Assembly: GCA_025210515.1 (NCBI GenBank)
Contig: JAOARM010000003.1
Location: 1 to 64,000 of the forward strand
Direction: 5' to 3'
DNA length: 64,000 nt
From: Vallitalea sp.
GTDB lineage: Bacteria > Bacillota > Clostridia > Lachnospirales > Vallitaleaceae
Shown here: piece by piece, positions 12,480 to 63,982 of the stretch
How the letters are laid out: each line of letters opens with the position of its first letter
How positions within the stretch are numbered: the stretch's first letter is position 1
Notes under the pieces: generated by a model
Database searches by the model: none
What the model saw: the letters and a program-made list of their open reading frames with translations, nothing else
What the model was told of the DNA's origin: nothing
Program-made: the position numbers and the translations under genes

Positions 12480-12617
12480 GTGGAGTAAACTTCCGCTCCG
12501 AATGTATAGGGTAATATTCCGTCAGCTAGTTAAACGTCCGTGTTTAAAATAGCTGACCTCGCCGTCCTGGCTCGTGCTTCATATTACCCTATACATTCTC
12601 CGCTAGGCTAGTGGAGA
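12480..12617 (+). repeat. Structured intergenic repeat, class I, copy A1
   Basis: This copy begins 3 bp after the mutS stop codon. A perfect 18-bp closing stem (12500-12517 with 12581-12598; left arm GAATGTATAGGGTAATAT) encloses two hairpins. Hairpin 1 (12521-12557) pairs GTCAGCTA with TAGCTGAC and TTAAAC with GTTTAA around GTCCGT. Hairpin 2 (12561-12571) is GCC-GTCCT-GGC. A short hairpin GGAG-TAAA-CTTC flanks the 5' side and CTCCGCTA-GGC-TAGTGGAG flanks the 3' side. It is clearly GC-richer than the genes around it. No reading frame or known RNA family is recognised. Confidence 0.88.
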
Positions 12618-12649
12618 TTTATATAATGCTTTGCGTGAATTTTGTGATT

Positions 12650-12790
12650 GTGAAGTGAACTTCTGCTCGGAACGTATAAGGTAATATTCCGTCAGCTAGT
12701 TGAACGTCCGTGTTTAAAATAGCTGACCTCGCCGTCCGTGGCTCGTGCTCCATATTACCCTATACATTCTCCGCTAGGCTGGTGAAGAAT
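12650..12790 (+). repeat. Structured intergenic repeat, class I, copy A2
   Basis: Second tandem copy, about 170 bp after A1. The copies are joined by a shared spacer of about 32 bp containing TATATAATGCTTTGCG. Differences from A1 are few. In hairpin 1 TTGAAC faces GTTTAA, giving a G-T wobble instead of an A-T pair. The outer left arm has one A opposite C. The second hairpin loop gains one base (GCC-GTCCGT-GGC). The 5' side hairpin is a perfect GAAG-TGAA-CTTC. Confidence 0.88.
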
Positions 12791-12822
12791 TATATAATGC
12801 TTTGCGTATGAATTTTGTGAAT

Positions 12823-12958
12823 GTGAAGTGAACTTCGCTCCGAACGTATAGGGTAATATTCCGTTAGCTAGTTAAACGTCCGTGTTTAAAATAGCTGACC
12901 TCGCCGTCCTGGCTCGTGCTCCATATTACCCTATACATTCTCCGCTGGGCTAGTGGAT
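12823..12958 (+). repeat. Structured intergenic repeat, class I, copy A3
   Basis: Third tandem copy, 173 bp after A2, ending about 80 bp before mutL. Hairpin 1 has GTTAGCTA facing TAGCTGAC, again a G-T wobble in place of a pair. The core tips TTAAAC/GTTTAA and GCC-GTCCT-GGC are unchanged. The 3' hairpin keeps pairing through further wobble changes. The spacer seen after A1 and A2 is absent, so the array ends here. Confidence 0.88.
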
Positions 12959-61245: not shown

Positions 61246-61541
61246 TGGAAATACATTAAAAGCTATTTTATTACACTCAAAAAGTATTTATAATTATATA
61301 GTTGATATTACTGTGAACTTAAGCTATTATTTAATTTGTATTAAAATAAATAAGAGTTTATATACAGTAAAAAAACACCGCCCAAAAAAAATATTAAATA
61401 TTTTACAAAATTATATTGATTAATTTCAAAAAAAAATATATTATTATGTGTAAGAGGTTATGTAAATATACTTAAGAGAATTGTATACCAATATTCTCGC
61501 TTATGTACATATAGATTAGAAAGTTGTTAGGAGGAACTACT
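61246..61541 (+). promoter_or_regulatory. ftsZ leader with a probable promoter
   Basis: A 296-bp very AT-rich gap. TTGATT at 61416-61421 and TATTAT at 61439-61444 are 17 bp apart and could drive ftsZ. Nothing else is recognised. Confidence 0.45.
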
Positions 61542-62666
61542 TTGCTTGAAATAAAAATGAATGAAAAGGCAAGTGTGGCAAAGATTGTTGTCATAGGAGT
61601 AGGTGGAGGCGGTAATAACGCTGTTAATAGAATGATAGAAGACAATCTTAATGGGGTTGATTTTATTGCTGTTAATACAGATGTTCAAGCTCTTCAATGC
61701 TCTAAAGCTTCAGTCAAAATACAGATTGGAGAAAAACTTACTAGAGGATTAGGTGCAGGAGCTAACCCAGAAGTTGGATTAAAAGCTGCTGAAGAAAGTA
61801 AAGAGGAGTTAGCAGAAGCAATAAAAGGCGCAGATATGGTTTTTGTTACTGCTGGTATGGGTGGTGGAACAGGTACAGGAGCTGCACCAGTAATTACGAA
61901 TATTTCAAAGGAAATGGGTATTCTTACAGTTGGAGTTGTAACAAAACCTTTTGATTTTGAAGGTAGAGTAAGAATGAAAAATGCAGAATACGGTATAGAA
62001 AGTCTAAAGAAATCTGTTGATACCCTAATAGTTATTCCTAATCAAAAGCTTTTATCAATAATTGATAGAAGAACAACAGTAAAAGATGCATTTAAAAAAG
62101 CTGATGAAATATTACAGCAAGGTGTACAAGGTATTTCTGATCTTATCTATACTCCAGGTATTATTAACCTTGACTTTGCTGATGTAGAGACAGTTATGTC
62201 AAGTAAAGGTATTGCTCATATTGGTATTGGACGAGCTACAGGAGATAATAAATCAGAAGAAGCGGCTAGAATGGCTATTTCAAGTCCATTGCTTGAAACA
62301 ACTATTGATGGAGCTAAGCATATACTTATTAATATTAGTGGTGATTCTAATATGTCTATGTTTGAAGCTAATGACGCTATCCAGTTAATTCAAGAAGCAA
62401 CTGGTAACGATTCTAATATTATATATGGTCAAATTATTGATGATTCACTAGAAGACGAATTAGTTGTAACTGTTATTGCTACAGGCTTTGAATCACTTAT
62501 TGATACAAGCATTGCACCAAGTAACAATAATGAGGTTAAAGAAGCAAATGAATTAGCAAGTGCAACAAAAGAAGTGGTAGAAGAACAAAATATCAAAAAG
62601 GATATTCATATTGAAGAAAAACCAATTGATATTCCACCATTTTTACAACGTAAAAGAAAAAGATAA
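61542..62666 (+). CDS. ftsZ: Cell division protein FtsZ
   Basis: A 374-residue tubulin-like GTPase that forms the Z ring. [17 protein letters not shown] and the GTP signature GGGTGTG (residues 107-113) are present, as are [20 protein letters not shown] and the T7 loop [14 protein letters not shown]. The C-terminal peptide [11 protein letters not shown] is the conserved partner-binding tail. TTG 61542 is chosen since AGGAGG stands 7 bp before it; ATG 61557 lacks a ribosome binding site. No ftsA precedes it. Confidence 0.96.
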
Positions 62667-62683
62667 TAACATTTTATGGTTAT

Positions 62684-62711
62684 AAAGTATCCCAATTGGG
62701 ATACTTTTTTG
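62684..62711 (+). terminator. Rho-independent terminator after ftsZ
   Basis: AAAGTATCCCAA is followed directly by its complement TTGGGATACTTT and a T run, 17 bp after the ftsZ stop codon. Confidence 0.9.
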
Positions 62712-62760: not shown

Positions 62761-62880
62761 CCTAGCGTAGAATAATATAGGGTAATATGTAGCACGAGCC
62801 AGGACGGCGAGGTCAGCTGTTTTAATCAGGACGATTAACTAGCTGACGTAATATTACCCTATATTGTTCGTAGCGGAAGT
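62761..62880 (-). repeat. Structured intergenic repeat, class I, inverted copy D
   Basis: On the minus strand this copy follows the A1-A3 pattern. The outer arms are 62770-62788 and 62851-62869, with one C-A mismatch. Hairpin 1 pairs TTAATC with GATTAA around GTCCT, and hairpin 2 is GCC-GTCCT-GGC. Compared with A1, an A-T pair in hairpin 1 has become T-A. In the outer stem a G-C pair has become A-T, and both arms have gained one base. It sits between the ftsZ terminator and the spoIIGA promoter. Confidence 0.87.
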
Positions 62881-62968: not shown

Positions 62969-63001
62969 TTGACAAATTATTCCAATTATGCGTGCTATAA
63001 T
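62969..63001 (+). promoter_or_regulatory. spoIIGA promoter with 21-bp spacer and Spo0A-box-like -35
   Basis: TTGACA (62969-62974) and TATAAT (62996-63001) are perfect hexamers separated by 21 bp, too long for unaided sigma-A. The sequence over the -35, TTTGACAA, differs by one base from the reversed Spo0A box TTCGACAA. The B. subtilis spoIIG promoter has a similar long spacer and Spo0A boxes near the -35. Confidence 0.7.
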
Positions 63002-63070: not shown

Positions 63071-63982
63071 GTGTACTTAGAAGTTTATATTGATATTGTC
63101 TTTATTATTAACTTATTAATGGATTATATTATATTATTTATAGTTAAAGTAATGACAAAGAAAAATACGAAAAAAATAAGATTGCTAATTGGTGCTCTAG
63201 TTGGAGCGTTAATGATGTGTATTATCGTCATTCTTCCGTATAGTAATTACTTGTTTAATGTTATAGTTGGGTATTTATTAACAAGTTTGTTAATAGTATA
63301 CATATCATTTAAACCAAGTAGGCTAAGTGAATTAATTAAGTTAACAGTTATAATGTATTTAAGTGCTATTATGCTTGGTGGGATAATGTTTGCCTTATAT
63401 TACTATTCATTTATTGGAGTAGAAATAAGTAAAGTAATTAATGGTACATATAATATGGATTTGAAAGTGGGCTTGTTTATTCTTTTTGGAATAATTGCTC
63501 TTATTATATTTAAAGTGATTGGAAAAATTATCACTAGCACAGCTGTAATTAATAAAAATCTATTTGGAATTGAAATTAATATTAATAACCATAAAATTAA
63601 TGTAAATGGATTATTAGATACAGGAAACAATCTATACGACCCAATAACTAATAATCCTGTTATAATTGCTGAAAGCGATTTATTAAAAAAATTCATGGAA
63701 GAAGATAATTTTAATAAGTTAAACAATATATCTAACAATTTGTATAACGTAACAGATTTTGTTGAGCTTGGACAACTAAGTAAACTAAAGCTAAGATTAA
63801 TTCCTTTTTCATCTTTGGGAAATGATAACGGCATGTTACTTGGCATAGTAGCTGATAATATATGCATTAATATTGGAGATGAAAAAAAAGATTTTAATGA
63901 TGTAGTTATTGCTGTCTATAATAAAAAACTATCTAATGATAACAGCTATCAAGTTCTAATACATCCAGAATTGGTGAGTTAA
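63071..63982 (+). CDS. spoIIGA: Sporulation sigma-E factor-processing peptidase
   Basis: A 303-residue membrane aspartic protease that cleaves pro-SigE in the mother cell. Five hydrophobic segments fill residues 1-155. The cytosolic protease domain has the catalytic motif VNGLLDTGNNLYDPITNNPV with Asp at 183, and then LRLIPFSSLGNDNGMLLGI. GTG 63071 follows a very strong GGAGGGGGG. After the stop codon, TAAGGAGATATT near the window end looks like the ribosome binding site of the next gene, expected to be sigE. Confidence 0.94.
   Translation: MYLEVYIDIVFIINLLMDYIILFIVKVMTKKNTKKIRLLIGALVGALMMCIIVILPYSNYLFNVIVGYLLTSLLIVYISFKPSRLSELIKLTVIMYLSAIMLGGIMFALYYYSFIGVEISKVINGTYNMDLKVGLFILFGIIALIIFKVIGKIITSTAVINKNLFGIEININNHKINVNGLLDTGNNLYDPITNNPVIIAESDLLKKFMEEDNFNKLNNISNNLYNVTDFVELGQLSKLKLRLIPFSSLGNDNGMLLGIVADNICINIGDEKKDFNDVVIAVYNKKLSNDNSYQVLIHPELVS

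Follow-up and report, generated by a model that had tools for sequence, protein, structure and literature searches.

A dispersed two-hairpin repeat of Vallitalea sp., related to TwoAYGGAY and carrying candidate CsrA-binding loops

The element between ftsZ and spoIIGA and its copies

The window is a 64,000 nt stretch of DNA from Vallitalea sp. A 118 nt element (copy D) is found in the gap between ftsZ and spoIIGA. An earlier note on this DNA placed it between the ftsZ terminator and the spoIIGA promoter, and this is right: ftsZ ends at position 62666, a terminator-like hairpin follows and spoIIGA starts at 63071. The ftsZ open reading frame (ORF) as called begins at TTG, and the real start is probably further in. 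Features of the locus, and three further copies in the window, are as follows.

61524–62666, + strand: ftsZ, ORF with PF00091 and PF12327 on 61554–62663
~62687–62711, + strand: ftsZ terminator-like hairpin and T run, read from the sequence
62762–62879, + strand: copy D, AYGGAY strand, model positions 1–116, 128.7 bits with covariance model R1
62770–62788, + strand: copy D outer stem, 5' arm, a 19 nt inverted repeat, 95% complementary, with covarying pairs
62795–62811, + strand: copy D hairpin A, C-GA-GCC-AGGAC-GGC-GA-G, loop at 62801–62805, from folding
62796–62797 with 62809–62810, + strand: tandem GA of hairpin A, from folding; present in 84 of 105 copies
62812–62847, + strand: copy D hairpin B, GTCAGCTG...TTAATC-AGGAC-GATTAA...TAGCTGAC, loop at 62828–62832, from folding and covariation
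62851–62869, + strand: copy D outer stem, 3' arm, partner of the 5' arm, from inverted repeat and covariation
62969–62974 and 62996–63001, + strand: spoIIGA promoter-like TTGACA-21 nt-TATAAT, read from the sequence
63071–63982, + strand: spoIIGA, ORF with PF03419
12490–12606, - strand: tandem copy 1, 137.6 bits (R1), in the gap between MutS- and MutL-like ORFs
12660–12777, - strand: tandem copy 2, 122.7 bits (R1), same gap
12832–12948, - strand: tandem copy 3, 127.1 bits (R1), same gap

The 21 nt spacing of the promoter-like hexamers (62969–63001) is unusually wide. A similar promoter-like sequence is present in relatives without the element. The location between ftsZ and spoIIGA is itself without special meaning, because the gap is element-free in the four relatives in which it was read (G001, G003, G004 and G005; G002 and G035 were left out).

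A BLAST comparison of the element with its own genome gave 43 strong matches, and 42 of these were aligned (alignment A1) to build R1. Forward matches to R1 at E < 1e-6 reveal about 62 dispersed copies genome-wide, where the earlier note had counted four. They comprise about 45 copies of a main family and 17 weaker matches, mostly of a second subfamily. The count may be low because some copies are at contig ends. At 12490–12948 the element and its flank are triplicated in tandem with a period of ~172 bp; the MutS- and MutL-like names of the adjoining genes are taken from ORF translations. The second subfamily (AGATAGACTAGGTTTAGCGG..., loci L208–L219 and L221–L224) keeps the two-hairpin plan, with AA/GT mostly replacing the tandem GA. 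One element copy has a cobalamin riboswitch upstream of it (L004, positions 391–567, 120.6 bits).

Conservation of the secondary structure

The + strand of copy D folds into the structure given in the earlier note. The minimum free energy is -47.2 kcal/mol (z = -6.7), with no shuffled sequence equally good; that of the reverse strand is -37.7 kcal/mol. The paired changes previously described from a comparison of copies are present. In hairpin B, the tandem copies have TTAAAC-ACGGAC-GTTTAA and copy D has TTAATC-AGGAC-GATTAA, so that the T-A/A-T double change is real. The G-C to A-T change in the outer stem is also found in copy D, and the reported lengthening of both arms by one base extends to other copies: the extra base occurs in 9 of the 42 aligned copies, the same nine for both arms (Fisher p = 2e-9). 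The two hairpin tips, said to be kept, are nearly so, but the tip of hairpin B is one base shorter in copy D (ACGGAC to AGGAC). Such changes are present as described, but a comparison of two copy types is insufficient by itself as evidence for the fold.

The 42 copies, aligned by sequence only with MAFFT, have 97.5% of cells paired, compared with 28–48% when the partners are slid, and both-sided changes occur at 14 of the 38 pairs. Covariation was assessed with an R-scape-like test, which uses the G statistic with APC correction and a null in which substitutions are shuffled along a FastTree tree. Among the 42 own-genome copies 0 of 38 pairs are significant, because these copies are too alike for a phylogeny-aware test. 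A larger alignment (A4) consists of 105 distinct sequences from seven genomes, six of Vallitalea and one (G035) of another family of the order; it was fitted to the structure by covariance model, which favours the structure. In this alignment 11 or 10 of the 38 pairs (two random seeds) reach E < 0.05, as opposed to none outside the structure. Thus the larger alignment yields significant pairs, in agreement with the earlier proposal that the fold matters.

An alternative is that the paired changes arose through descent, gene conversion or alignment alone, without selection on the fold. The absence of significant pairs in the own-genome copies and the use of the structure in making A4 are in keeping with this. 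It is rejected, however, by the phylogeny-aware null in the seven-genome alignment, where all significant pairs belong to the structure, and slid partners pair far less; we regard it as very improbable. These results support selection on the fold. The stems vary by compensation, and the loops and the tandem GA of hairpin A are mostly constant.

The types of change at paired sites also differ. Changes from Watson-Crick to G-U pairs number 51 and those from Watson-Crick to A-C pairs 20, whereas at unpaired sites these two classes of mutation are nearly balanced (103 and 99, summed). The excess at pairs and the balance at unpaired sites show that it is the AYGGAY strand that folds. This asymmetry alone is compatible with either RNA or single-stranded DNA and does not separate the two. 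G-U pairs make up only ~2% of paired cells, which is low for an RNA.

Relation to TwoAYGGAY and to CsrA

TwoAYGGAY is an orphan RNA family whose function has been unknown since 2010. The element is related to this family (Rfam RF01731, clan CL00106) but divergent, and it scores below the threshold. An Rfam search of the window at the gathering threshold gave no match, and TwoAYGGAY was absent from the matches listed in a permissive search of six loci; the link emerged only in a genome-wide search. RF01731 has 18 matches at E <= 10 over the whole genome of the element, and 17 of these are on the repeats. The best copy has 36.3 bits and does not reach the gathering cut-off of 43, and the element is therefore termed a divergent relative and not a formal member. 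In the reverse direction, R1, built from own-genome copies, matches Pseudobutyrivibrio elements that score 49–68 bits with RF01731, above the cut-off. R1 also has matches in G035 and in each of the remaining five Vallitalea genomes, and none in the 89 other genomes.

The element resembles TwoAYGGAY in having an outer stem, two hairpins with AYGGAY-type loops and tandem GA in one stem, and in its occurrence in Clostridia. Tandem GA in a stem is a reported feature of the family (PMC4333381); in the second subfamily AA/GT is found instead. An A(N)GGAY loop is present in hairpin A of 96 and hairpin B of 99 of the 105 copies (summed). TwoAYGGAY typically has several copies per genome in the scan of Clostridia, as here. 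The element differs in that many loops in this genome are without the Y (AGGAC), in its length (~118 nt, compared with a 168-position model) and in its very high copy number in this genome. A search for the loop pattern over named genomes gave further loci in Vallitalea, Pseudobutyrivibrio, HGW-Firmicutes-7 and Colwellia, and several of the Pseudobutyrivibrio and Colwellia loci score above the Rfam cut-off. Single matches to the pattern in unrelated genera may be due to chance. In the Colwellia locus L148, TwoAYGGAY matches above the threshold occur three times on the same strand in a span of 1.3 kb (positions 1364–2612). They adjoin a gene that resembles elongation factor G.

The loops are of interest as candidate sites for CsrA. 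GGA is present in both loops of 97 of the 105 copies. The loops are 27 nt apart in 70 copies and 26–28 nt apart in 104. In most relatives they are exactly the CANGGANG apical hexaloop, a high-affinity CsrA/RsmE site with an optimal spacing of 18 nt; in Campylobacter, CsrA is titrated by a flagellin mRNA that carries a pair of these loops at a distance of 21 nt (PMC4894983). Many copies in the present genome have a 5 nt AGGAC loop, one base short of the ANGGAN hexaloop. A CsrA-binding site in TwoAYGGAY was proposed in 2014 from motif resemblance (PMC4333381). The genome has one csrA, located within a fliW-csrA-flagellin locus. CsrA is present in all seven R1-positive genomes, yet also in 76 of 96 relatives.

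Across Clostridia, RF01731 (E <= 0.01) is found in 38 of 391 genomes: 33 of the 125 with CsrA and 5 of the 266 without it (p = 2e-13, with no phylogenetic correction for the ancestry that genomes share). Hfq, the control gene, is also enriched and is present in 28 of the 38 genomes with RF01731. Among genomes with CsrA, however, RF01731 occurs in 26.3% of those with Hfq and 26.7% of those without; among genomes lacking CsrA the values are 4.3% and 1.0%. The Hfq enrichment thus arises only through CsrA, since Hfq adds nothing once CsrA is fixed. The CsrA effect persists in genomes without Hfq, where RF01731 is found in 8 of 30 with CsrA and 2 of 196 without. The five exceptions that lack CsrA belong to genera whose other sampled genomes carry it. 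RF01731 and CsrA could both follow a third property, such as motility. This dependence on CsrA, with Hfq as a control, provides new support for the motif-based idea of 2014.

Placement, spread and possible function

All Vallitalea copies are intergenic, with none inside an ORF of at least 80 aa as found by a simple ORF caller; two G035 copies are inside such ORFs. The copy sites vary between species. Between co-directional genes, the AYGGAY strand of the main family in the element's own genome is antisense in 26 of 31 cases, and copies fetched later, mostly of the second subfamily, are antisense in 12 of 12. The antisense to sense ratio is 10:1 in G001 and 20:4 in G035, and the sense to antisense ratio is 10:3 in G003 and 8:1 in G005. 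A proposal that the G003 bias is opposite to the leading strand, with the origin assumed at coordinate 0, is contradicted by GC skew. Convergent gaps with an element number 31 and divergent gaps 12.

The excess of convergent gaps, the intergenic position and the strong hairpin are what a transcript-end element would display, i.e., a terminator, stabiliser or attenuator that acts on neighbouring genes in cis. Such a role is nonetheless improbable, as a scan beyond the 3' ends on both strands shows no clear U-tract, the orientation flips by lineage (mostly antisense in the own genome, G001 and G035, mostly sense in G003 and G005), and element-free relatives keep an ordinary terminator and promoter at ftsZ-spoIIGA.

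The element may also be compared with mobile DNA repeats. It is similar to REP/RAYT repeats and MITEs as a short palindromic intergenic repeat with dozens of copies at lineage-specific sites. The differences are that the own genome is without a Y1 transposase match, unlike REP/RAYT, and that no fixed target-site duplication was found. A non-autonomous MITE- or REP-like repeat, in which the palindrome would be a transposase substrate, the loops recognition marks and any RNA incidental, would account for the ~62 dispersed intergenic copies and tandem duplicates, for sites that differ between species (with ftsZ-spoIIGA empty in four relatives), for the strand bias within most genomes, and for changes that are mostly Watson-Crick with few G-U pairs and no promoter signal. 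This explanation is judged unlikely. No match to Y1/RAYT transposase (PF01797) was found in the own genome, which is ~95% complete; no target-site duplication of at least 3 bases in a fixed register was seen, although no clean recent empty site was available to fix the exact boundary; and no longer copy that carries a gene was observed. Neither the excess of G-U over A-C changes nor the dependence on CsrA is predicted by it. The element has no match in phage, plasmid and viral collections.

Among the sites compared between G003 and G005, one is common to both but has lost an internal stretch in G005, another is shared and diverged, and for a further one a single flank was found; none of them gives a clean boundary. 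In the deletion (L226, G005:C43, compared with L072 of G003) the G005 copy has lost ~64 bases with both hairpins and has kept the outer arms. In a G005 subfamily (L127–L131) the flanks share an extra hairpin-like stretch (AGAAAAAGTGTTTTGTGATTATAAACACTTTTTCT), and the repeat unit there may be longer.

The reading that we consider reasonably probable is that the element is a dispersed, divergent TwoAYGGAY relative which, as RNA, binds a CsrA dimer with its two loops and titrates or recruits CsrA. The AYGGAY strand would be transcribed, a pair of CANGGANG-type loops separated by 27 nt would bind one CsrA dimer, and transcribed copies would titrate CsrA or bring it to the transcript that contains them. 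We infer that CsrA binding by AYGGAY-strand RNA is the best-supported mechanism, because the fold is conserved, GGA loops are at a dimer-compatible spacing, there is a link to TwoAYGGAY and CsrA co-occurs. The reading is weakened by the many 5 nt loops in this genome and the few G-U pairs. The mostly antisense copies argue against a simple action on mRNA. Their antisense position, together with a promoter scan that shows no promoter-like excess before the element, makes transcription of the AYGGAY strand hard to explain. Of the facts that CsrA binding leaves unexplained, the main one is that the copies in this genome are placed antisense.

CsrB/CsrC, RsmX/Y/Z and the Campylobacter flaA leader likewise present GGA in hairpin loops that are spaced so that a CsrA dimer could bridge them. 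The present element differs from CsrA-titrating RNAs in having two sites per element at dozens of loci, compared with one or few sRNA genes or mRNAs, and in being without a visible promoter or terminator; CsrA binding is here only predicted. A more tentative possibility, rather doubtful at present, is that the copies form a mobile, genome-wide set of CsrA decoys that would jointly set the free CsrA level, their strand bias with respect to genes differing by lineage. Given the high copy number in this genome, one may ask how an RNA that looks regulatory comes to be an interspersed repeat.

The number of csrA matches varies among the genomes with the element: there are two each in G001, G004 and G035, and one in each of the other Vallitalea genomes that carry the element.
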